Source of the DNA: Notolepis coatsorum
Taxonomy: Eukaryota > Chordata > Actinopteri > Aulopiformes > Paralepididae
Direction of reading: 5' to 3'
Assembly: GCA_963971535.1 (NCBI GenBank)
Contig: OZ020598.1
Location: forward strand, 85,959,622 to 86,023,621
Length of the DNA stretch: 64,000 bases
A model generated the notes under the pieces. That model was not told the origin of the DNA, ran no database searches, and saw nothing but the letters and a program-made list of their open reading frames with translations. Of this stretch, positions 10,193-54,335 are shown piece by piece. Each line of letters begins with the position of its first letter. Position 1 is the stretch's first letter. The position numbers and the translations under genes are program-made.

Positions 10193-13100
10193 AAAACCAA
10201 GACAAGAGTATAATGATAGCCTCAAAATATACATCTAGATCAAATCCTAAATTAAATCTAGTTCTGAACTGTGCTGATATCGAACAGGTCAGTGAGGCAA
10301 AACTGCTGGGTGTTGTAATAGATGAAACACTTTCTTGTTACGATTCCTGGCACTTTTCGTTGGCATGTCGGTGGTAGAGATGAGTAGAACCCGGAATGCA
10401 GACTTAACACGAGGAGAGGTAGTGGAGGATGAAATAGATGAAGCACGAGTCGTGGATGAAAGTAATAAGCACTTTACTTAACGTGGCAAACAATACAAAA
10501 CTGACTCACTGGGAATAAGGAGAAACATAAGGTTGACAGCACACAGGACGAGGGTAACATGAACAATGATCCAGCACAGGAAGGCAGGGTAGACAACACT
10601 AATATACACAGACTAATTGACACATGTGGGTGATTGGGAACAAGACACAGCTGCATGGAAAAGACAGAACAACCTGAAACATGACAACACTAAATAACAC
10701 ATAGATACAGACACAGGGGAGACATCACTAGACTAGACAATGGGGCACAACACAGACAGCAGATACACAGACAACAGATTAGTGAGTATGACAGAGACCA
10801 AATTAATAAACATAGACAGGCACAAATGCAATAGGGTATTGTTCATGAGTGGTGTTGAAAGTCCGATGGCCGGTCCAATAGGACCGGGGGGGTGACAGTA
10901 CCCCGCCCTCAAAGGTTGACTCCCAGGCGACCTAGCAGGCCCCCCGGGAACGGGAAGGGTGGGAGGGGGGGAAGCAGCGTCGGCGAAGAGGTGCGGGGGG
11001 AGGAAGGGGGTTCGAGGGACGGGGCTCGGCCTAGCAGACCCCCCGGGAACAGGAAGGGTGGAAGGGTGGAAGGGAGGGAAGTAGCATCGGCGAAAAGGTG
11101 CGGGGGGAGGAAGGAGGGTCGAGGGACCGGGCTCGTGGGAACTGGGTCGGGGGAAGGGGGCTGACGAGGAGGACTGGAGCAGGGAAGGATGGAGGGTAGA
11201 GGCGACGGCTCTGGAGTGGGACCTGGGGCTGGGGTCTCCTCGGCGGCGAGACCCACCGCCGAACCCCGAACCGGAGGCTCCCTGGCGGCAGGACGCGGTG
11301 CAGGACCCCCGACCGGGGTCCCTCCAGCAGCGGAATTCGGCGTCGTCCTCCAGGTCTGCCATGGTGGTGGCTCGTCCTCCGGAACCTCCCAGGGCTGAAG
11401 AGATCTCGACCAGGCCGGCAAGGAAGACCTGTGATCCTGGGAACCCCATCCCCTGGGGCTGTGGTGTCGGGATCCGCGCCCCTTCCCCGACGCTCCCCTG
11501 CGGACCAGATGACTCCCCACCCAGGGATCCAGCACAGGAGTGGCCGCGGCGCAAGCACCCGTTGTCATCGGCGCCACTGGCCCGGCCACTCCGTCCCACG
11601 GTGCCAAATCCCGAGCGGCCGCCTGGTCGGCACACAGGACTGAAGCGCCCAGGATAACGAGCCCGAAGCTCGCTCCGTCTCTCCTCTCTGCAGGGTTCTG
11701 GTTTGGCTGGATCATTCTGTTACGATTCCTGGAACGTTTCGTTGCCATGTCGGTGGTAGAGATGAGTAGAAACCGGAATGCAGACTTAACACAAGGAGAG
11801 GTAGTGGAGGATGAAATAGATGAAGCACGAGTCGTGGATGAAAGTAATAAGCACTTTACTTAACGTGGCAAACAATACAAAACTGACTCACAGGGAAAAC
11901 GGAGAAACATAAGGTTGACAGCACACAGGACGAGGGTAACATGAACAATGATCCAGCACAGGAAGGCAGGGCAGACAACACTAATATACACAGACTAATT
12001 GACACATGTGGGTGATTGGGAACAAGACACAGCTGTGTGGAAAGGACAGAACAACCTGGGGTAAAATACTGAAACATGACAACACTAAATAACACATAGA
12101 TACAGACACAGGGGAGACATCACTAGACTAGACAATGGGGCACAACACAGACAGCAGATACATAGACAACAGATTAGTGAGTATGACAGAGACCAAATTA
12201 ATAAACATAGACAGGCACAAATGCAATAGGGTATTGTTCATGAGTGGTGTTGAAAGTCCGATGGCCGGTCCAATAGGACCGGGGGGGGTGACAGTACCCC
12301 GCCCTCAAAGGTCGACTCCCAGGCGACCTAGCAGGCCCCCCGGGAACGGGAAGGGTGGGAGGGGGGGAAGCAGCGTCGGCGAAGAGGTGCGGGGGGAGGA
12401 AGGGGGTTCGAGGGACGGGGCTCGGCCTAGCAGACCCCCCGGGAACGGGAAGGGTGGAAGGGAGGGAAGTAGCATCGGCAAAGAGGTGCGGGGAGAGGAA
12501 GGAGGGTCAAGGGACCGGGCTCGTGGGAACTGGGTTGGGGGAAGGGGGCTGACGAGGAGGACTGGAGCAGGGAAGGATGGAGGGTAGAGGCGACGGCTCT
12601 GGAGTGGGACCTGGGGCTGGGGTCTCCTCGGCGGCGAGACCCACCGCCGAACCCCGAACCGGAGGCTCCCTGGCGGCAGGACGCGGTGCAGGACCCCCGA
12701 CCGGGGTCCTTCCGGCAGCGGAATTCGGCGTCGTCCTCCAGGTCTGCCATGGTGGTGGCTCGTCCTCCGGAACCTCCCAGGGCTGAGGAGATCTCGACCA
12801 GGCCGGCGAGGAAGACCTGTGATCCTGGGAACCCCATCCCCTGGGGCTGTGGCGTCGGGATCCGCGCCCCTTCCCCGACGCTCCCCGGCGGACCAGATGA
12901 CTCCCCACCCAGGGATCCAGCACAGGAGTGGCTGCGGCGTAAGCACCCGTTGTCATCGGCGCCACTGGCCCGGCCACTCCGTCCCACGGTGCCAAATCCC
13001 GAGCGGCTGCCTGGTCGGCACACAGGACCGAAGCGCCCAGGATACCGAGCCCGAAGCTCGCTCCGTTTCTCCTCTCTGCAGAGTTCTGGTTTGGCTGGAT

Positions 13101-14616
13101 CATTCTGTTACGATTCCTGGAACGTTTCGTTGCCATGTCGGTGGTAGAGATGAGTAGAAACCGGAATGCAGACTTAACACAAGGAGAGGTAGTGGAGGAT
13201 GAAATAGATGAAGCACGAGTCGTGGATGAAAGTAATAAGCACTTTACTTAACGTGGCAAACAATACAAAACTGACTCACTGGGAATACGGAGAAACATAA
13301 GGTTGACAGCACACAGGACGAGGGTAACATGAACAATGATCCAGCACAGGAAGGCAGGGCAGACAACACTAATATACACAGACTAATTGACACATGTGGG
13401 TGATTGGGAACAAGACACAGCTGCGTGGAAAGGACAGAACAACCTGGGGTAAAATACTGAAACATGATGACACTAAATAACACATAGATACAGACACAGG
13501 GGAGACATCACTAGACTAGACAATGGGGCACAACACAGACAGCAGATACACAGACAACAGATTAGTGAGTATGACAGAGACCAAATTAATAAACATAGAC
13601 AGGCACAAATGCAATAGGGTATTGTTCATGAGTGGTGTTGAAAGTCCGATGGCCGGTCCAATAGGACCGGGGGGTGACACTTTCTTGATCGAAACACATT
13701 AGCAATATGGTGGCTAAGATGAGCTGTGGTACTTCAATGATCAGAAGGTGTAGAAATATGTTGACTAATGGTACAGCAAAGCTTGTACTACAATCTTTGG
13801 TCTTATCACGCCTGGCCTACTGTCCTACTATATGGTATAACGCCTCTAGGCTTGATCTGAACAAACTCCAGTTAGCTCAGAACAGGTCAGCACACCTCGC
13901 TCTGCGCTGCTCTGTGAGGAGTAGTGTTGGAGTGATGCATGCCGCACTGACCTGGATGACAGTGGAACAGAGGATGGCATGTAGCCTGGTAACTTTTTTG
14001 TTTAATATCTGTAATACTGGGAAACCGGAGGGTTTGCACTCACAACTGTACCCAACTAATATGAGACATGGATATAGCACAAGGCAAGCATTAGATTCAA
14101 ACAAATGCTCTGAAAAAAAACGGTAATGTATAGAGCAGTTGCTTATTGGAATAAAATACCCAGAAATAGAACTATGATAAGGAACAAATTTATGTTTAAA
14201 AAAAAGTTTAAAATTGCGCTCATGAATAATGAGTTACATTTTGGCCATTGACTTTTGAAATGAGTATGGAAATATAAAGGTGATCGGTGACTTGAGAAAT
14301 GTTATGCTATAATATGAGTTCAAATCATATATATGATTTTGATCTGTTTTGTTCTTATGGACTGAATATGTAATTAGTATTTTATGGTTGAGAATTGTGA
14401 TATCTAACTTATGAATATTGAGTGAGCTTTTATTCACTGTTTTGTTCGTTGTGATGTTTTCTTGTGAGTACTTCAATGTTTGTGGTTTTATATTTTTATT
14501 TTACTTTTTTTGTGTGTGTTTGTATTTTTAATGTTTGGACCCCAGGAAGAGTAGTCTCACTTTGATGTAGACTAATGGGGATCCACAATAAAACAATAAA
14601 ACAAAACAATAAAACA
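10193..14616 (+). mobile_element. Non-LTR retrotransposon (jockey-like), 5'-truncated and split
   Basis: Coding blocks at 10193-10330 (VLNCADIEQVSEAKLLGVVI) and 13686-14125 (LVLSRLAYCPTIWYNASRLD) are consecutive parts of the C-terminal end of a LINE reverse-transcriptase protein. A run of A residues near 14113-14121 shifts the frame. The homologous tail YRAVAYWNKIPRNRTMIRNK follows in another frame up to about 14245. The 3' UTR ends in AATAAAAC repeats (14585-14615), the usual LINE tail. It lies in a Harbinger Myb-like gene and contains a tandem LTR element at 10336-13679. Only the extreme 3' part of the LINE is present. Confidence 0.75.
10336..13679 (-). mobile_element. Tandem LTR element with three LTRs (fossil, non-autonomous, Gypsy-like)
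   Basis: There are three LTR copies of about 562-576 bp (10336-10897, 11718-12293, 13106-13679). They alternate with two near-identical internal regions of about 815 bp. Read on the minus strand, each LTR begins TGTCAC and ends GTAACA. The purine-rich segment GAGGGCGGGGTAC lies just before an LTR, which fixes the orientation. The repeat CTTTCT flanks the whole array (10330-10335 and 13680-13685), so it entered as, or became, one unit. The internal regions are GC- and proline-rich with no recognisable gag or pol. The copies differ at few positions, so the duplication is young. It sits inside the LINE at 10193-14616. Confidence 0.83.
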
Positions 14617-25006: not shown

Positions 25007-26021
25007 TAGGGGTGGACGGTATGGTCTAAAATTTATATCACGGTATAATTTGAAGCATAGACGGTAACGGTATATATCACGGTATCAGTGTTTCTGTTAG
25101 AATAATTTTTTTTGCCTGATGGGCAGGCTATATAAAGAATGACATCCTCAAGGCATGTAGATTTATAATATTTTAACTTAAAACTAGGCTACTTTTGCGT
25201 ATAAAGTCATATTCCAAATAAAATAAGTCCCGAGTCGAGACTCCTGCTCCCATTGCAAACAGCAGGGCTGGATTTGGCTAGAAGCATATGTAGCTGCAGA
25301 GCCGCAGAGCGAATTGAATTGAATAAGAATTGAGACAAAGGTGCCACTCATCCTCAGCTTTAAGAATTGACAATTGTGTCAACAAATTGACATGTGTCAA
25401 CAAATTGACACATGTGTCAACAAATTGACACACAAAATGGTGATGGGGGGGCGCTGTTTGACGGGCCTGTGACCAGACCTGAAAGAGCCCCTGGCTCTGC
25501 GGCTCTGCAGCTGCATGCTATTGGCAAATCCACTGCTGCAGCCGTCCTCCCGGCTCCCGCTGCTGCCGTCGTTATCATAACACTACACACATATCGTAAT
25601 GTTTACAGCAAACTGTAGTTGATCACCAGGTATGTTTTATTAACGTAGAATAATTCATATAAGAAAAACGATAGGGAAATATCTTACCTTTCTCCACTGG
25701 TTAAAAATGCCAGGAACTGAAATTGAAACTTGCTGTGCGCCGCAGTGATATATGTGTTTATTATGAAATGACAATTGCGTGTTGACACGCCCACTGCGCG
25801 AAGCCTCCTAAATAACTTTTTCCAGTTTGCACATATCTATTATCTATGACTAATTCTATCTATTTTTAGGGGCAAATGCGATTGAAATAGTCGCGCTGTG
25901 GTTACATGACGTCATTGCTATTTTAGAGCTGCTGTACCGGTTACACGGTATAGTCAAAATCCATACCGTAGAGCAAATTAATACCGTTTATACCGTATAC
26001 CGTTTATACCGTCCACCCCTA
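25007..26021. mobile_element. hAT-like MITE inside the Gypsy fossil
   Basis: TAGGGGTGGACGGTATGGT at the left faces ACCGTTTATACCGTCCACCC at the right, an inverted repeat with further short ACGGTATA repeats inward. No transposase is present. A repeated ACAAATTGACACATGTGTC block lies near 25.38-25.43 kb. I could not define an 8-bp target duplication with confidence. Confidence 0.65.
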
Positions 26022-26569
26022 CTAAATGGGAAGTTGCTCTCGCAAATAACATGCCACACCACGCCTCTCCGCCTTCAACTCTCCGGGAATCATAGCAAGG
26101 AGATCCGTTTTCACGTCACTGATTCCCCCCATAACCCAATCGTTCTAGGCATGCCTTGGCTAAAGCTACACAACCCTGTAATAAATTGGTCAACGGGCTC
26201 AGTCACGAGCTGGAGTGCTCACTGTCACGCCTCTTGTCTCCGGTCGGCGCGGTCACCACTGGGGGCCACTGGTTCTCCCGTTCCCAACGAACCTGTTGAC
26301 CTTTCGACTGTTCCTCCAATTTACCACGACCTAGAGGCTGTGTTTAGCAAACAACAAGCTCTCTCCCTACCTCCTCATCGCCAGTACGACTGTGATATAG
26401 ACCTGCTCCCGGGAGCCCCGCTAGCCGCCTGTTTAACCTCTCACGCCCAGAGAGAGAGTCTACGGAGAAGTACGTCCACGAGTCCCTGGCCTCGGGCATT
26501 ATTACCCCCTCCTCCTCCCCTGTCGGCGCGGACTTCTTTTTTGTGTCCAAGAAGGACCACTCCCTTCGC

Positions 26570-26963
26570 TGCCTTCTACAACAGAACTTTGTTTCCGCGT
26601 TCGAGTTTTGCGCTCTGATTGGCCAGGTCATGTGACATGTGCACCAATCGTGGGACAGCAAGTTCTGCGCCTATTTCCGGGTCTAACAGCCTGCAAACTA
26701 CCTGGCGTTCTATCGCCATGCTCGTAAGACAAACTCTAACCATAACCAACTTCGAAAGAGTGCCTACGCTTAACCATAGGAATCAGGGCAGGCGTTCTAT
26801 TGCCATGCTCTAAGACAAACTCTAACCTTAACCAACTTCGAAAGAGCGCCTAAGCTTAACCAGTGTAGAAACTTGCGGTCCCACGATTGTGCGTACATGT
26901 CACATGACCAGAAATTACCTGGCCAATCAGAGACGCGGAAACAAAGTTTTGTTGTAGAAGGCA
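26570..26963. mobile_element. Foldback element, copy 1 (shared hairpin core)
   Basis: The terminal inverted repeat TGCCTTCTACAACA(A/G)AAC continues through TTTGTTTCCGCGT. A central core carries the motif AACCAACTTCGAAAGAGTGC twice in direct orientation. The flanking arms share TGTCACATGACCAGAAA and GGCCAATCAGAG, also seen at 36.8-37.25 and 62.1-62.3 kb. No protein is encoded. Confidence 0.65.
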
Positions 26964-28172: not shown

Positions 28173-28259
28173 ATAAAAAAATAAAATCCTTCTAGGTTTT
28201 AAAATGTATATGGGTCAGTTTCCACACTTTGGACCGCTACAGAACATGAGGGAATCCAT

Positions 28260-28816
28260 TTGAAAATAAGTAGCTTCAAACTAGTTGACCTCACTCAGGA
28301 CCATGTAAACAAACTGGCCATTCATGTGTATAACATCCAGCACCAGTTCCAGAGGCTGAAGTCACTCAAGGAGAGCATTACTGAGAAGGAGGTGGCCATC
28401 CACGTTGATTACAGTGAGAACTACAGCTGTAAGTACACCAGGGAAGTGAAATACACCCACTTTGGTGGCCGGAACCAGCAAGTGACGCTTCATACTTGGG
28501 TGAAATACCTGAGTGGGGGACGTGTGGAGTTATTTGCCTCTCTGTCAGGGTCCCTAAAGCATGATGCTGTTGCAACGTGGGCTCATCTTGATGCAGTGCT
28601 CAAGTCCATCCGGGAGGAACATCCAGAAGTGATGCACATCCATTTTTATTTCAGATGGACCCACCTCCCAGCGTTCTATCTGGCCTCGACAGTGCCTTTC
28701 ATGAGAGGGTTTGAATATGTCACCTGGGACTTCTCAGAGGCATCTCATGGCAAGGGTGCCACTGATGGGGTAGGGGATGCACTCAAGAACATAGCAGACC
28801 GGCTTGTTGCTTATGG
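28260..28816 (+). pseudogene. Transposase-like fragment of a fish repeat family
   Basis: The frame contains ITEKEVAIHVDYSENYSCKY, GGRNQQVTLHTWVKYLSG and EASHGKGATDGVGDALKNIA. I know this pattern from multicopy, transposon-derived fish proteins but cannot place it in a named superfamily. Near 28650-28680 (HFYFRWTHLP) the reading is locally out of frame against the usual SDGPT stretch. Homology ends at a poly-C run (28820-28836). It may belong to the same family as 46428-47385, whose N-terminal part would fit ahead of this one. Confidence 0.5.
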
Positions 28817-28832
28817 ACCCCCCCCCCCCCCC

Positions 28833-29040
28833 CCTATACCTCAAAGAACTCATCACCCCTCACTCCTCCTCACGACGTCTCCTCTCCGGCCAGGCAAACC
28901 TCCTCCAGCGCTGAAGGACCAAACTCTGCACTATGGGAGATCTGGCTTTTTGCTCTTCCGCTCCTAGTCTGTGGAATGCTCTCCCTGACCACCTGAGAGC
29001 ACCACAGACTGTGGATGCTTTCAAGAAGGGCCATTTACCG
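28833..29040 (+). mobile_element. LINE 3' fragment (L2/Rex1-like)
   Basis: It encodes LKELITPHSSSRRLLSGQAN and APSLWNALPDHLRAPQTVDA, the conserved C-terminus of fish L2/Rex-type LINE proteins. Two frame changes lie between the blocks. It is a short 5'-truncated relic. Confidence 0.65.
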
Positions 29041-33712: not shown

Positions 33713-35704
33713 ATTAAAATGATCTGTTTTACGTCAAATTATCAATGGCACAATTTACCCCAGTGTATTCTCTCTAATGTCACAATTTACCCCGCACCGG
33801 GGGCAAGTTGTGCCACAAAACCACTTTTTTTTCTAAAGCTATGAAGCTATATTTATGAAACAGTTTATTTAAGATACAAAGTGATTGTCCCCAGGGATGC
33901 ACAACATCCTAAACTGTACATATTTTAGTTGGGGGCATTACTGTTCCTTCCTGAGTGGGCTTCTAGTCTGTAATATTAGTCCCACAGACTTTCTAGTTAC
34001 AATGGATGTAGTCAGCCTGTACCCTAGCATTCCACATGCTGACGCGTTAGACGCATTGAGTTTTTATTTAAACTCGAGAGCAGAATCACTCCCCTCCACA
34101 GACGCGCTAGTTAGACTAGCCGATCTTGTGCTTACGAGGAATTACTTTAGATTTCAAGATACATATTATTTGCAGAACAGAGGACTCAGCATGGGCTCGC
34201 CAGCCGCAGTGAACCTTGCTAATCTTTTTATGTCTAAATTTGAATTAGAACATGTTTTTAAAAATAACCCGTTTGAGAAACATGTCAAATCCTACATGCG
34301 CTATATAGATGACCTATTCTTTATTTGGTCAGGTACATCGTCTGAGCTCCATGACTTCCTTGAATATCTCAACTCTTGTAGATTAACGATAAAATTTACT
34401 TTGAAGTTTGATTTACAATCGCTACCCTTTTTGGACGTCTTAATCAACAAAGCCCCAAGTGGGACTTCATTACATACAGAGGTCTTCAAAAAAGAGACAG
34501 ACAGAAATTCGTTTCTTCATTTCTCTAGCTACCATACCCCAGCTTTAAAAAATAGTCTACCTTTCAGCCAAATACTCAGGTATAAGAGAATCTGTGACAC
34601 GGAGGTCAGATTCAAGGCCCAAGCCGAAACCCTACGGGAGAATTTTCATGACAGAGGATACAGTGCTATTTTAACAGCTAAGGCCCTGCACAAAACTCAG
34701 CAGATTGACAGATCCTTGTTACTGGCCCCTAAGAAGAATAAGGTACACTCTGATAAAGTGGCCTTTGTGTCTACTTAGAGCCCGATTACTAGAGACATAC
34801 GTACCATTGTCAATAAATACTTGCATATTTTACAGTCAGATCCTCTAATTGGAACGGCGTTTCAACATTCGCCCAATTACTATTACAAAAGACAAGCGAA
34901 TCTCTCAAATCTGCTGGTGAAAACGGATTTTCCCAAGGTAAAACCAACTCACTTTATGTCTAACATCCCAGATGGGAACATTCCCTGTCAATCTTGTGTA
35001 CATTGCCAAGGGATGATCAAAGACAAAAGTTATACACACCCAAAAACGGGCAAACGGATATCGGTGAAAGGGCGTATTACCTGCAATTCCTCCAACATAG
35101 TATACCTGCTGAAATGTCCTTGTGATTTTTCATATGTAGGCAAAACAACGAGACCATTCAAATTAAGAATCAGTGAACATAAGTGTTCAATCAGAAATTC
35201 AGATGTCAAATCGGCGGTAGCTAGACACTTCAATACTTGCAAGCATGCTGTCAAAGATCTCCGTTATATGGGTCTAGAGTTAGTTCATAGGCCCGCCAGG
35301 GGAGGTGACAGACATAAGCTACTTTTGCAAAGGGAATGTTATTTTATTCACCTCTTTAACTGTATAGAACCAAGAGGTATGAATGAAGAGAACGTGTTGA
35401 CCTGCTTCCTTTAATTACTTTTCCCATTAAGGCCGATTATTAGTTTTAGTATCCTTGGAAAGAAGTATGTCGGGTTCAGTAAATACGAGTAAGATCAATT
35501 TAGCCCAACAAATAAGTTTATTTTAAGCAACAAGTATCTAAGTATACAAGGGAGTATTAATGATTAGACTATAGATCTATTTTAAAGAGCCATTAGTAAG
35601 TCTAATAACCTTCAGACACACCGAACAGGTGTAGTTTTTTCCTTTTTTCCCTTTTTTCCGCTTTATTACGAGGCTCAAAAAAAGAGTTTGAATTTACGCC
35701 TAAT

Positions 35705-37437: not shown

Positions 37438-37555
37438 ATGGCATGGGATCAGAGGCTACACTTTTGGCGTAGGCTACTCGCCGATACCGATACCAGCATT
37501 TTAGGCAGTATCGGAGGCATTTCCAATACTGGTATCGGTATCGGAACAACTCTAT
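37438..37555. mobile_element. hAT-like MITE piece with GATACC inverted repeats
   Basis: CCGATACCGATACCAG (about 37480) and CTGGTATCGGTATCGG (about 37533) are exact complements around about 37 bp. The sequence continues as CCAAAAGTGTAGCC on the minus strand, as in common fish hAT relics. It forms the C-terminal codons of the TMEM30A-like frame. Confidence 0.6.
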
Positions 37556-38636
37556 TGCGGTTGCCGTATTTGTGGTGGATGATGAGCAGGATGATGCCCA
37601 GGAAGAAGCAGACGGAGCCCACGGTGATGTAGGCGATGCCCAGGAAGGAGTTCTTGCCGCCAATCCAGGAGATGGTGCTGAGGATCATGCGCTTCCTTCC
37701 CTTGAAGCTGAGCACGGGGTAATTGTAGGTGACCTCCAGGACGTATTTTCCGCTGGGCAGGGTGGGGGTCATGCTGGGCTTTTTCTGGATGATGCGGTAA
37801 AGCTTCCTGAAGGTGGGCAGCGCCGCCGTACGCATCCACACGATGAAGTCCTCGTTGATGAAGCCGTTGTTGTCGGCGTCCGCCGAGTCCAGCTCGTACG
37901 CTGTCTTCCTCCAGTTGACCGGCTTGGATGTTCCTTGGAAAGCTGCTGTGAGGTTGTTGTTGCTGCCGCCAGGGTTCCTGAACCTCACATGCTTGTCTGT
38001 CCACCAGGCGATGCCCTTCTTCACCAGAGGGATGGCGTTCCTGGAGCCGTTGGCATCGATGTAATAAAGCTCCAGAGTGTCATTGAAAAGACTGTTAGCG
38101 ATGGCGCCACATGGAGCAATAGGAACGTCTCCAGCAGTGGTGCGATATGGCTCACATTCCTTGCTTGGACTCTTTAAAGATGACTTGTCACCATTCAACT
38201 GGCTGTTGTCCATGGACTTCACATAGAGCCTGTGGTTCTGGTAGAAGTTGGTCAGGCCGTAGTACATGAAGACATTGCTCTCAAACGGCTGCTCCAATTT
38301 GAAGTCGACAGAACAGGTGCAGGGCCTCGTGCTGTTCCAGCTGTAGCTGTGAGAGCAGTTGAAGCACGGGCTCGACATGTCAACGCCAGTGTAATCAACT
38401 TCGAACTCTTTGATGTTTTCTGACGTCACGAACAGGCCGATTCCGATGGGGATGAAGATGAGGCCGATGAGGAAGAATGCGGGCATGGCGGTGCCCGCGG
38501 TAAGGGTGGGCTGCCAGGCGGGGAGTCTCTGCTGTTTGAACGCAGTGTTGTAGGGCTTCTTGCTCTTGACGACGGCTCCTCCTGGGCCGCCGTGCTGCCC
38601 GTCCTCCTCCTTCGCGTTGTAGCTCGACGCCATCAT
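37449..38636 (-). CDS. tmem30a: TMEM30A (CDC50A)-like protein, intronless, with altered C-terminus
   Basis: A 395-codon frame is uninterrupted. Residues 1-361 follow vertebrate TMEM30A, the beta subunit that carries P4-ATPase lipid flippases from the ER and helps them move phosphatidylserine across the bilayer. Visible features are a cytosolic N-terminus, transmembrane segment 1 (about 51-71, [20 protein letters not shown]), and an ectodomain with Cys 91, 94, 106, 108, 161 and 176. N-glycosylation sites are at N93, N101, N185, N196 and N228, and transmembrane segment 2 is at about 329-353. The family gene normally has several introns. None is present here, so this is probably a retrocopy. The last 34 residues (after HHKYGNRN) are read from a hAT-like repeat, replacing the normal short tail. 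The ORF is otherwise intact, so recent origin or selection is likely. Confidence 0.88.
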
Positions 38637-38812
38637 AGCTGCGGTCTAATCCACTTCACAGTTTGTTGTCGAGACCGGCAGTCTTCACGTTAAAACAAAA
38701 AGTAAACGCTGTTCACGTTGTGTAACAAAACAAGCAGCTACGTCTAATAACTAACTGGTGTTCATCATACGTCGGTGGTCTAAGTTATCTTCTTTCCTGC
38801 GTATATATATAT

Positions 38813-47736: not shown

Positions 47737-48046
47737 AATGGAGGCCAGAGAAAGACTTTCGTCTTGTTTACATCAGGGTCCCCCAATTTCAATCGTCATG
47801 GTAACATATAGATAGACAGTACTGCTACATCTCTATATTTATGACATACTATATTTCTATTGCTACAGTATTGCTCAATACCAACAACTGTTATGATGGA
47901 GGCCAGAGAAAGACTTTCGTCTTGTTTACATCAGGGTCCCCCAATTTCAATCGTCATGGTAACATATAGATAGACAGTACTGCTACATCTCTATATTTAT
48001 GACATACTATATTTCTATTGCTACAGTATTGCTCAATACCAACAAC
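47737..48046 (-). repeat. 158-bp repeat, two tandem units
   Basis: The unit carries GGAGGCCAGAGAAAGACTTT and TGTTTACATCAGGGTCCCCC. The second unit stops at CCAACAAC (48046), where the 5.4-kb element begins. The array resumes at 53456. Confidence 0.82.
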
Positions 48047-48050
48047 GTTA

Positions 48051-48330
48051 GGTTATGACTATAACCAAGTTCTGTTAGTATAGCGACGCTCGGCATCGCT
48101 CTCTGCACTATCTCGCATACGTGCACGCGCACTGAATAAAGACCACAATGTACCTTTAATCCCAATATTCGTCTGACCACACCCCTATCAGCTTACCCAT
48201 ATAAGCAGGGGTGGGGCCACCCACTCTCCTCCTTCCCAAGCTTTCGCCACAAGGCGAGGTCAAAGGCTGCAGCGGCGTCGGATGCCGAGCGTCGCTATAC
48301 TAACAGAACTTGGTTATAGTCATAACCTAA
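48051..48330. repeat. Left-end hairpin of the 5S-bearing element
   Basis: GGTTATGACTATAACCAAGT, continuing through TCTGTTAGTATAGCGACGCT, is faced by its near-exact complement at 48282-48328. The arms are about 48 bp, with a loop of about 180 bp that contains the sequence shared with the right end of the element. Confidence 0.85.
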
Positions 48331-48862
48331 CGTTCTGTATCGTATCGCTCTCGCTCGGCATCGCTCTCTGCACAAGGGAGGCCGAGCGAGAGCCAACGGC
48401 CGACAAATACACCCCGCTGACAGCCCCCCACAAACCATCAGAACAGGGAGGGCCGAGCCCCCCCGACCCACCCTAATGGCGGGCACCCCCCCTATTAGGG
48501 GCTTCACGGGAGGGCGACGGACCCGACCGTGCGAAGAGGCACTCAAGCAACTCAACGCACAGGGTGAGCAGACCGTGGCTTGACCCCACGACTACACACA
48601 CGCACAACCCGCATGCCACCCGGGAACGAACGGAGGAACAACCTCGTTACTGCCCTCAGAATCACGGGGTCAAGGGCAAACCCAACCCCGTGGCAAGGCC
48701 GTAGCAGCGGAGCACGAAGGAAGACCCAGACCCACCAAAAGGACTGGACTCCCTAGAATGGGGGCCCGGAGAAGTCCATGATGCCAGCATCAAGACCCCA
48801 CCAGGTGGGCACGTAGTGCCCCGCCCCCCACATCGCCAGCGTATTCGGACAAAGGCCCCTCA

Positions 48863-48979
48863 GTTACTGCACCTGGTATTCCCAGGCGGAATCCCATCCA
48901 AGTACTAACCAGGCCAGAACCTGCTTAGCTTCCGAGATCGGACGAGATCGGGCGTGTTCAGGTTGGTATGGCCGTAAGC
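48863..48979 (-). rRNA. 5S rRNA gene copy, near canonical
   Basis: On the minus strand it runs from GCTTACGGCCATACCA through CACGCCCGATCTCGTCCGAT, GAAGCTAAGCAGG and GGTTAGTACTTGGATGGGAT to GGAATACCAGGTGC. It differs from vertebrate 5S rRNA at only about six positions by eye. The box A, intermediate element and box C internal promoter are recognisable. No T-run terminator stands directly after it. 5S rRNA is part of the large ribosomal subunit. As a single copy inside a mobile element it is more likely a captured gene than part of the working 5S array. Confidence 0.85.
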
Positions 48980-49640
48980 CGAGCGGGCCCTGTCCCCCCA
49001 ATAGTACACCGCCTGGCACACTGACCCTGCAGAACAGGCAGTCAGCATGGCCGTAAGCACACAAAAAAGGTTAACCAACGGAAGCAGGCAGCGCACCGGG
49101 GAAAAACCAGGCAACAGGCTGTTAACCCTAGCCTGGAGACTGCGGACGAGACAGGCGCCAGAGGGGACAGCTGAACACAGCCGCCCCGGCGGAAGGAGCG
49201 TAAGCTGGCGGTGTTGCATGACCAAGCCTCCATTTAAAAACCCCCACCCAGAGGGGTCGAGGCAGAGAAGGCTGACACGATTGGCAGACGTCATGAACGT
49301 GCAGGGGCACCCTCAAACGGTGAACCCGGGAGTTGACACTGCTCCAACACACCAGGGAATCAACCACCTCGGTGTTACCCAATGCGGTGGTTGTTCCTAT
49401 AACCCCTCAAGAAAAAACTCCAAAACACACCTGCGGGTATACACCGGCTATACCGCAGTACAAGTGTTTCAGTTTCCAAAAAGGGTTAACCCAGGCCTAC
49501 GGGTCGCAAACATCACTTCGGACCGGGCCTGGCGGTACGGGAAGCACAGGGTCACCAGAGGAGGTCAAAAAACCACCCCCACAGGCCCCTCTTCGCCATG
49601 CGTGAGAGAGGAGGGAAAAATAATGGAGAACCAGCCCCTA

Positions 49641-49758
49641 AGCACACCGTACCTGGTATTCCCCGGCGGTCTCCCAACCAAGTACTAACCAGGACCAACC
49701 TGTGTAGCGGCCGAGATCCGACGAGATCGAGCGCGTACAGAATGGCATGGCTGTAAGC
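49641..49758 (-). pseudogene. 5S rRNA-derived copy, diverged
   Basis: The minus strand reads GCTTACAGCCATGCCATT, GATCTCGTCGGATCTCGGCC, CTGGTTAGTACTTGGTTGGG and GGGGAATACCAGGTAC. It matches 5S rRNA along its whole length with perhaps 15-20 differences. It lies about 780 bp from the better copy in the same orientation, so the pair may reflect an old 5S-plus-spacer repeat. Confidence 0.75.
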
Positions 49759-52700
49759 CATGACGACAGTGCTGAGTAAAAACATACCCAACCAGGGTCT
49801 CCATAGCGCTTAACCCTGTGACACCCAGACCGACCTGGCATTTTTCCCCCTGAAAAAAGCCCAAGTCCCTCAGGGTACCAGAACAGCAGATCTGCATCCC
49901 CGGCGGACAACGGGTTCAACTGATCTGGACCAGCGTGACCAGAACCAGTCCCGTGCCCTAACCACGCCGACATGCCTACTCCAGGAGAAGGGCAGATATG
50001 CGTGTTGATCTTAACATGAAAAGAAGGCGCCACCCAGACGTTCGGACGAACCGCGCCTGGCGGCCCACCCCAAGGGCGTGAGACCCCACCACATATGTTC
50101 AGATCCATCCCGTCATCATCCCCCAGACATGAACGAGAATCCGTCAAAAACCCACCCAGGTCATGGGATGTGGTCGTCGGAAGAGGAAAAACCCCCATCT
50201 CAGTTGCTTTATAAAAACGCTGTTTCAACCACAAGCAACCAAGGCGTGCCAGTCAATCGCCTGTTTACAGCGAGCTAGCACTATACGTGCGTCGGGACAC
50301 ACCCCCATCAATGAACAGGCTATTTAGACCTGTCATTGAATCCCCAAGGCGCCCAGGGGAACGACAAGAGGGGTGTGACACTCCCTAACTCCAACACTTC
50401 TGGAATAGAAAGAAGGAAGCATCAACAGTATGTATCCCAGTCTACACAGCCGGGGTAAAAAAAATTCACATTTTTACATCCCACCACCCTCCCATAGGAA
50501 AGAGACGGGGATCCCCAGAGAGACTTCCCACGCGAGCTGTACAGATTGAAAAGAATATATTGCACCTTGAGCCATGTAAAAAACTGGTTTTAGGGCCTCC
50601 GGGGAAGAGGCACTGAACCCATACACACTCAATAAACGAATTGAATCGAATATACATACAATAGAAAAGGACCCTTCTAGAGGGTCCACTCACTTTGACA
50701 ATCTGAGGAGGAAGGCTCTGTACTCTGATGGAGGCTTCCTCACATGGAAGAAGGAGTCCGAACTCACAGAAGGCCTGAATAGGCGCTTGGTGAGGAGGAG
50801 CCCTGACCACCCCCCCTGAAAACAGATCCATCACATGGACCTGAACAGCACACGGAAGTCCTACCAACAGAGACGCGCACGGTGACGTACTCTATGGCGG
50901 GGGAATTCCTGCGGTGCACACGCCCAATATACCAGGCCGTGGGACCAGGAACTCCCTCCCCCCCCCCGTAACGTGCCGAACCGCCACGTGACGGGAACCT
51001 TGAAGGACAGGGGGTGTACCCCTGACCGACAGAACAATGGGGAGAGGAAAGGTTACCAGTTCACCCCTTTACGACCCCACACCCATGATACGATGTAACG
51101 ACAAAAAGAGAATATGACACAGTCATAGTCAGCTCTATGAAGCGTTTCACAGCTCCACACAGCGCATGAGCTAACCTGCTATCTGATTTTTACTAAGGAA
51201 AAACACAGAATAGAGAGGGCTCTAAGAACCCCGGTCCAACATACACATGTGCTTCCGTGGCCAGTACAACCCAGTTGTAGGTCACATGACACACACAATC
51301 ACCTACAAAAAATGGCAAAAACACTCAACAGAGGAACGCCGTTTTTTTCACAATGAGAGAATACATCATTCTTGATTAGTATCGACCACAGGCCTTGCTA
51401 AGCACACATGACAGCAACCAAACCAATTTCCCTTTAGGAAATAAGTTTCTCCAGCAGATTTAGCACAACCTCAGCAATCAAGCTAAGAGTTACATCGTAT
51501 CCCTACCACACAAAAGACACAATTAATGCACAACATGTCTGATAGGAGGATGAAAAAGTCCCCAGGGAACCGGGGGGGAAACACAATCCTCCTATTTTAC
51601 CCTCAATACGGCCAGTTAAAACAGGAAAACCTGTTAATGTGTGAACACACTGTTCATTGTCATTACAGTCTGAGAAAGAACATTCTTTTACTCACTTGTC
51701 ACCAAGCATAGCTTCATAGGTTAGTTACCTTAGTTGTGAGTACACGGCCGTGTTTCTCACACAACAACCAGATCATTACATCCCGTTTGCACGGAGAAGC
51801 TAACTGCCAGTGACAAAAACAGCTCACACATAACCCGCAACGTATCCTAAATGCATTGTAGCAACACACGTTTTGGGAAAAACACCGTTATTCACAATAC
51901 ATTTAGCAAAGTAAAACCAGAAGACGTGTTATGAGGTCTGGTCAACCCCGTTCCTACCCGGAACGCAGATCAGCGAAGTGCAGTCACAGACACCGTAGGA
52001 ACACAGCCGCTCCTGTGTTGTCCGAACTGGGCAGCGTCACCGCCCCAACCCGCACTACAGTCCCCTGTTGATGCAACCTTGCCGTCCTGGCTCAGGGCAG
52101 GGTCGACGAAAACATCCCCTGTCAAGGATGACGTCGTGGTCAAGAGTGTAAAACATGTTAAAATCAAAGCACGTTCAACAGAATAGCATCAAGCTAACGG
52201 CCGCTCCAACCGTTCGGGTGCTACTGCTTCTGCTTGCGAGACGCCGATCTAACGACGCACGCGATCAGAAGCGAGCTCACGGCGGCGCGCGAGAAGCTAA
52301 GCTACCCCGCGCCAGGCCATGGCCATAGCAGCAAGCTAACGTTACCTAGCGACCACGACATGCTAGCCCCGCAGCTAACAGCTGACTGGCTAATAGTAGG
52401 CCCTAAGCAGGCCATGCAGCGATCCAGCAGGCTAACGCAGCAGTTAACAGCTGACTGGCTAACCGTAAGCTATGAACATGTAAACAATGACATAACACTC
52501 ACCCAGACAGGCCGCCGTTCTGAACCTCTCCTCACTTTTTAAGAGAAAAGAGAAAACAAGATGTCAACACCGCTTCACAACGGTGACTTTACCACATCCG
52601 ACGGAATCAGCACAGTACCAACTGGCCTGTGTAGCTGACTTTGAACATGAATCTGCCGCTATCGCACATTACATGCACATATCCCCTCGTGAAGGAATAC

Positions 52701-53455
52701 TCTCATTTGGATATGAAAGATGGGGCCTTAACACGGTGACAGAGAGAATCCACTCGTCCAGAACACACAGGGATCACCAGTGTCAATGGTCGCGGCCCAC
52801 TAGTTAAAACTATAATGGTCTTCAGACCAAGGCCTTCTGTCGCCTAGGTGGCTGAACAAAGGACCCTAGCCTGGGGCCGGTTTCCATAAACTTTGTCAAG
52901 TAGCCCCCATAGCACTAACAGACAAGTGGAGCCCGCCAGCAAACACTACTCACCCAACCTGGAACGCACCGCTTCTCACAACAGCGGCATGTCCGACAGT
53001 TCAGCTGTGGCCTGACAGGTTTCACCCCAACAAACACAGCAAGGAACTGCAGTTGAGAAGCATGCAGCGGCGTGCTCCCAATACGAAAACCGGTGGAGGG
53101 TTTTTAGAATGATCATCATCTTCCAGACACTCAATATCGCCGTATTTTCTCGAAAATAGTGAGAGAGAAAATAAAGATATGATGTCAACGTATCCTTGTT
53201 TCCCAAAGCTGCTCCTAAACCTTTCTTCCATCATGGTGTCAAGTGTGGGGATCTACCGAGGCACTTCTTCCTTGTGGTGAAAGCGAGAAGGAGGAGAGTG
53301 GGTGGCCCCACCCCTGCTTATATGGGTAAGCTGATAGGGGTGTGGTCAGACGAATATTGGGATTAAAGGTACATTGTGGTCTTTATTCAGTGCGCGTGCA
53401 CGTATGCGAGATAGTGCAGAGAGCGATGCCGAGCGAGAGCGATACGATACAGCAC

Positions 53456-53690
53456 TGTTATGATGGAGGCCAGAGAAAGACTTTCGTCTTGTTTACATCA
53501 GGGTCCCCCAATTTCAATCGTCATGGTAACATATAGATAGACAGTACTGCTACATCTCTATATTTATGACATACTATATTTCTATTGCTACAGTATTGCT
53601 CAATACCAACAACTGTTATGATGGAGGCCAGAGAAAGACTTTCGTCTTGTTTACATCAGGGTCCCCCAATTTCAATCGTCAAGTACAGTT
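53456..53690 (-). repeat. 158-bp repeat, right-hand units
   Basis: One full unit (53457-53614) and a partial second, in the same orientation as 47737-48046. They resume the array after the 5.4-kb element. Confidence 0.82.
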
Positions 53691-53692
53691 AG

Positions 53693-54335
53693 TGTCAGTC
53701 AGTACAATCTAACGTTAGTGAGTGTGTGTTTTCGACGGGCCGCGCGCGACAGAAGTACACAACTATTATATAACAGTAAGTAACTAATAGTGCAATTAAT
53801 CAACTTACCAATCGGAAACGATGTAACGTAAGCCTCGATCGCTGTTGTTTGGGGGTTAGTGTCAGTACAATCTAACGTTAGTGAGTGTGTGTTTTCGACG
53901 GGCCGCGCGCGACAGAAGTACACAACTATTATATAACAGTAAGTAACTAATAGTGCAATTAATCAACTTACCAATCGGAAACGATGTAACGTAAGCCTCG
54001 ATCGCTGTTGTTTGGGGGTTAGTGTCAGTACAATCTAACGTTAGTGAGTGTGTGTTTTCGACGGGCCGCGCGCGACAGAAGTACACAACTATTATATAAC
54101 AGTAAGTAACTAATAGTGCAATTAATCAACTTACCAATCGGAAACGATGTAACGTAAGCATCGATCGCTGTTGTTTGGGGGTTAGTGTCAGTACAATCTA
54201 ACGTTAGTGAGTGTGTGTTTTCGACGGGCCGCGCGCAACAGAAGTACACAACTATTATATAACAGTAAGTAACTAATAGTGCAATTAATCAACTTACCAA
54301 TCGGAAACGATGTAATGTAAGCCTCGCTGTAGCAA
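53693..54335. repeat. 163-bp tandem array, four units
   Basis: Units begin about 53693, 53856, 54019 and 54182, near-identical (CTAACGTTAGTGAGTGTGTG; TTCGACGGGCCGCGCGCGAC). A (CTT)n run at 54344-54356 follows. The very high identity means recent amplification or homogenisation. It lies 400 bp from the right end of the TTAA element. Confidence 0.93.

Follow-up and report, generated by a model that had tools for sequence, protein, structure and literature searches.

The window analyzed here, a stretch of 64,000 nucleotides from the fish Notolepis coatsorum (contig OZ020598.1, positions 85,959,622 to 86,023,621), contains a 158-bp tandem repeat that is split by the insertion of a 5412-bp element. 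This element carries two 5S rRNA-derived sequences between long inverted ends. Its bounds, 48044 to 53455, were drawn from the inverted repeats, the empty site, the length and the GC content. They are best set to include the trinucleotide at 48044–48046 (AAC on the plus strand, GTT in sense), since the target shares it with both the right end and the internal junction. The sense of the element is the minus strand, running from 53455 to 48044, with an interior of about 4.9 kb. GC content inside the element is 52.7%, compared to 43.5% outside; the CpG observed/expected ratio did not discriminate the two (0.73 vs 0.68).

Insertion site and termini

The target sequence is found uninterrupted on both sides of the element: the 19-nt stretch CCAACAACTGTTATGATGG is intact on the plus strand in the neighboring 158-bp unit (47881–47899) and again downstream (53606–53624). 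In the orientation of the element, the target reads CATAACA-GTT-GTTGG. An earlier note on this DNA, made from the sequence alone, had seen no duplication, and the uninterrupted sites confirm this, with GTT as the crossover trinucleotide; crossing over at GTT explains why the target is not duplicated. The note had also placed the element exactly between two 158-bp units. The splitting of the tandem repeat holds, but the exactness depends on where a unit is taken to start, the array itself beginning at 47738 in another phase. The repeat is also dispersed, since an inverted, diverged relative, likewise uninterrupted, sits at 541–790, nearly 47 kb away. A second tandem array (53698–54326; 163-bp unit, 3.9 copies, 99% alike) begins just past the broken 158-bp array.

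The ends of the element, all given on the minus strand, are inverted terminal repeats (ITRs) with a divergent and a conserved part. The left terminus starts with GTG and has its divergent part at 53436–53455, CTGTATCG, followed by a conserved part of 149 nt at 53287–53435. The latter is 100% complementary to the conserved part of the right ITR, identified by inverted-repeat comparison at 48087–48235 (149 nt), so that the long inverted ends of the earlier note are fully borne out. The divergent part of the right ITR comprises 18 nt (48069–48086), its inner border being alignment-dependent. It is followed by a right extension of about 25 nt (48044–48068), which ends on GTT in sense and is complementary only to an internal complementary region (ICR). 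Two such regions are present. The right ICR (54 nt, 48281–48334) is the complement of the right terminus at 48044–48097, with 100% identity, and the left ICR (42 nt, 48332–48373) is the complement of the left terminus at 53414–53455, with 98%, the single mismatch falling on the last base of the trinucleotide, which is GTT in the ICR and GTG at the left end. Both ICRs share the GTT at 48332–48334. When the right end is joined to the left end via GTT, the reverse complement of this junction agrees with the internal region from 48373 to 48281, taken as a whole, at 93 of 93 positions (the left part at 98% when its own trinucleotide is used), whereas 20 shuffles of the interior reached at most 41 of 93. 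The match is thus beyond chance. Two lone hexamers, which could be due to chance, lie in the left ITR: AATAAA at sense position 69 and the TATA-like TATAAG at 134. The latter recurs inverted in the right ITR. No match was obtained for the 20-nt end motifs, one compared with viral contigs and the other with prokaryote genome contigs, as expected for a eukaryote.

The earlier note had described a second left-end hairpin and had labeled the unit a foldback element. The pairing itself exists (48044–48097 with 48281–48334, 54 nt, 100%), but it consists of the right terminus facing its own internal complement. The foldback label is therefore wrong, and a foldback transposon was dropped as a candidate. 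An internal region of this kind, matching the joined ends, is not known from foldback, Helentron-like or Crypton elements. Membership in one of these other duplication-free classes would account for the long inverted ends and the missing duplication, but is very improbable, as the published signature of DIRS1-like retrotransposons is such an internal region, which is complementary to the joined ends and has its overlap on the target trinucleotide (PMC3266345). The end repeats, being inverted, also differ from the split direct repeats of Ngaro, VIPER and PAT elements, which were rejected on this ground.

As outlined in the overview of DIRS1-like elements, these possess ITRs, a terminal extension and two ICRs that overlap on a 3-bp circular junction, and their integration into a target with the same 3 bp causes no duplication (PMC3266345). 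According to its rows for the ray-finned fish elements GaDIRS1, GaDIRS2 and TnDIRS1a, all three start with GTT and have the junction AAC; TnDIRS1a ends with GAT, the other two with GTT. The same rows give lengths of 19–21 for the divergent and 144–148 for the conserved ITR part, 26–27 for the right extension, 36–46 and 56–57 for the ICRs, and 5322–5931 bp for the whole element (PMC3266345). With values of about 20, 149, about 25, 42 and 54, and 5412 bp, respectively, the present element fits these rows in its architecture. This fit and the kinds of retroelement found around the element point to a fish genome. The hemichordate SkoDIRS2 is likewise listed with GTT/GTT/AAC, and its ICRs are given as 63 and 65 (PMC3266345). 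Xenopus DIRS elements are described with the same plan (PMC9210276), and the GC content of the element is close to the 53.8% reported for fish DIRS (PMC7599744). Taking the 93/93 circle junction, the terminus sizes and the GTT/AAC junction into consideration, the resemblance to tyrosine-recombinase elements stated in the earlier note is strongly supported.

Coding capacity and neighboring features

All stop-free open frames of at least 55 amino acids inside 48047–53455 were scanned against Pfam. Every one of the 52 frames stayed below the curated cut-offs, and no retroelement domain was detected among them, be it reverse transcriptase/RNase H, methyltransferase or tyrosine recombinase. The eight matches that did appear were weak (E 0.041 to 0.53) and unrelated to DIRS. 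Hidden proteins were accordingly dropped as a candidate, and the earlier description of a unit with no recognizable protein stands. As a control, ten frames from elsewhere in the window were scanned, of which eight matched at E 0.01 and two gave nothing. Six of the ten hit retroelement families: four matched RVT_1, in two cases below the curated cut-off, one gag and one L1 RNA-binding. At 227 amino acids, a length that 7 of 200 Markov simulations also attained, the longest open frame of the element is mildly long and has no other support. The period-3 signal was uninformative, two of three coding controls (L1 and gag) lacking it too. Just past the left ITR, a 76-amino-acid frame (53025–53252, minus strand) holds ATGATGG at the place where the gag of an autonomous element would begin; it gave no Pfam match above cut-off.

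The good state of the ends makes it improbable that coding was lost through mere decay, and no domain was found; we therefore call the element non-autonomous. As the domains of an autonomous member did not turn up in any of the 52 frames, it is classed among non-autonomous elements whose termini are DIRS1-like, and not as an autonomous member.

The interior includes a CpG-richer stretch at 52050–52550 (observed/expected 0.96 in 52047–52546) that is full of GCTAAC/GTTAGC words and has a donor-like GGTGAGT motif at 52503 in sense. A host promoter or first exon may have been captured here. This genic-looking stretch, together with an interior devoid of recognizable DIRS remains and the presence of one copy only in the window, which is the scope of the copy count, would also be expected of a one-off hybrid, in which template switching or recombination added foreign sequence to a DIRS complementary DNA or circle before a single integration that founded no family. 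Such a gain must, however, have spared every cis signal at either end and in the internal region, all of them still perfect, and the unequal divergence of the two 5S copies suggests more than one step. We regard the hybrid as a possibility, but a doubtful one.

Several other features of the window lie apart from the element. A single open frame of 398 amino acids at 37449–38645 (minus strand) was assigned by Pfam to CDC50/LEM3 (E 1.3e-94). As TMEM30B of vertebrates has one exon only, this frame may be an ordinary gene. A long direct duplication (10336–12293 and 11718–13679) is 96.8% alike over 1972 aligned positions and contains long proline-rich frames. Adjoining frames at 33885–35414 (plus strand) gave weak reverse transcriptase and weak GIY-YIG matches, both below cut-off, and are read as a Penelope-like element. 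Finally, a 254-amino-acid frame at 28203–28967 (plus strand) resembles a real protein and had no Pfam match at E 0.01.

5S rRNA-derived sequences

Both 5S rRNA-derived sequences lie in the sense of the element, on the minus strand. Copy 1 (48861–48979) scores 94.8 bits and the more diverged copy 2 (49641–49758) 66.6 bits against Rfam RF00001, whose gathering score is 38, and both span the full model (1–120). They are 780 bp apart and start about 3.7 and 4.5 kb into the 5.4-kb unit. The earlier finding of two copies in one orientation is thereby upheld, but the word genes is too strong because the copies are imperfect. In copy 1, UU replaces a conserved GA and two pairs of the closing stem are broken; further pairs are broken in copy 2. 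The first T4 run occurs 121 nt past copy 1, and a T5 run 21 nt past copy 2. Neither minimum-energy fold stands out (z −1.57 and −0.17).

Over 127 nt, the similarity of the two copies is about 80%, and their surroundings gave no mutual alignment at E 0.05 with a word size of 7. For both reasons the pair does not represent fresh units of an array. Either the 5S parts were acquired separately, or only these portions stayed alike; as the likeness stops at the 5S borders, there may have been two acquisitions, with 5S RNA or 5S genes as the source. That a fragment of a 5S array was placed here by rearrangement, which the earlier note had named as the outcome that would overturn its reading, could be suspected from two 5S sequences in the same orientation at a distance of 780 bp. 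The candidate was checked and is contradicted by spacers that do not align with each other, by the exact ends, by the internal complementary region and by the precise empty site, leaving it barely conceivable.

Conservation of the 5S structure was assessed by 5000 simulations over 34 pairs. This test is weak because it depends on a reference 5S that may contain errors, notably at positions 23–24, where both copies differ from it. Relative to this reference, copy 1 keeps 30 of the 34 pairs, which was equaled or beaten in 23% of the simulations, and copy 2 keeps 29, equaled or beaten in 2.0%. One pair of copy 1 is altered on both sides, from C-G to A-U. These values bear on an alternative in which the element belongs to a true non-autonomous family with working 5S sequences, kept because they serve as an internal RNA polymerase III (Pol III) promoter or because the 5S-like RNA offers 5S-binding proteins a handle. 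The sense orientation of both copies, the two-sided pair change, the pair-keeping of copy 2 and the confinement of the likeness to the 5S portions would agree with it, and Cassandra and SINE3 provide a precedent (PMC10886601). Against it stand the UU in place of the conserved GA, the broken closing pairs, the absence of a T4 run within 120 nt of copy 1 and the ordinary folds. Moreover, Pol III starting about 3.7 or 4.5 kb into the 5.4-kb unit could not yield a full-length transcript. Use of the Pol III promoter, which the earlier note had entertained, is likewise unsupported by the sequence, copy 1 being altered at conserved positions with its nearest T4 121 nt beyond, and copy 2 being more diverged, though with a T5 21 nt beyond. 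We therefore consider working 5S sequences unlikely, and the copies are most likely captured passengers, not working genes.

Proposed origin and relation to known elements

The features described above are best explained by a non-autonomous copy of the DIRS type, i.e. of a tyrosine-recombinase retrotransposon, which inserted recently at a GTT of the 158-bp repeat after mobilization in trans, the helper being an autonomous DIRS1-like element whose ends were compatible. We assign this reading a probability of roughly three in four. Transcription would start from a promoter in the left ITR; both ITRs of Dictyostelium DIRS-1 are described as promoters (PMC4482531). The transcript would be copied by the reverse transcriptase of the helper, and the internal complementary region would join both ends, giving complete ends and a circle, which the tyrosine recombinase of the helper would cross into a genomic GTT. 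These steps follow the published DIRS model as given in PMC3266345, of which the end product is what is observed here. Mobilization by a helper is suggested by analogy with other non-autonomous retrotransposons.

A number of points weigh against this reading. The left end carries GTG, one base off GTT, and in the repeat copy at 541–790 the site coincides with a 7-bp gap and the target GTT is missing. Weak or fragmentary protein remains could have been missed, as a retroelement-looking frame elsewhere in the window (25854–26618) gave no Pfam match either and the gag of DIRS elements need not be in Pfam. The pair-keeping of copy 2 hints, as far as the reference used is right, at past constraint on the 5S sequence, which tells against the passenger view of this copy. 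Finally, both the family status and the helper are assumed.

In summary, the element has in common with DIRS1-like retrotransposons the divergent and conserved ITR parts, the right extension, the ICR overlap on AAC/GTT, the absence of a target duplication and the size. It differs from autonomous members in that reverse transcriptase/RNase H, methyltransferase and tyrosine recombinase were not found in its open frames and in that it carries 5S-derived sequences. Non-autonomous partners are well described for long terminal repeat (LTR) and long interspersed element (LINE) retrotransposons (PMC10886601). For DIRS elements, the sole precedent encountered among the open-access literature matches listed was SIRE, presented as the truncated, non-autonomous version of the kinetoplastid element VIPER (PMC6681497). 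SIRE is, like the present element, a non-autonomous derivative of a tyrosine-recombinase retrotransposon; unlike it, SIRE is described as short, with split direct repeats and no 5S (PMC6681497). A protein-less copy in such good condition, in which every known cis signal is retained, would be of use in establishing the cis requirements of DIRS replication.

The 5S-bearing retroelements named in PMC10886601 are Cassandra, Ajax and SINE3. Cassandra and Ajax are non-autonomous retrotransposons with 5S-derived sequence, as is the present element, but they are described as holding the 5S in LTRs, as making target duplications (5 bp for Ajax) and as being shorter than 1 kb (PMC10886601). Here, ITR/ICR termini are found without a duplication in a 5.4-kb unit, the 5S copies are internal, and no terminal direct repeat is present in the element. 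SINE3 shares with it the state of a non-coding mobile element with 5S-derived sequence; its 5S is described as a promoter at the head of the element, which moves by LINE machinery (PMC10886601). In the present case the copies lie far inside, neither at the 5′ end nor in a short element. No report of 5S cargo in a DIRS element was found among the open-access literature matches listed, most subscription papers and Repbase reports lying outside this scope, and such cargo is tentatively new for DIRS-type elements. The element shows that they can carry host RNA-gene sequence. Should the 5S prove to be kept across copies, 5S would have entered mobile elements independently once more. A multi-copy family of large non-coding elements, mobilized by DIRS and keeping sense 5S for its own benefit through Pol III transcription or the binding of 5S-handling proteins, is improbable on the present evidence; if true, it would be a tyrosine-recombinase counterpart of Cassandra and SINE3.

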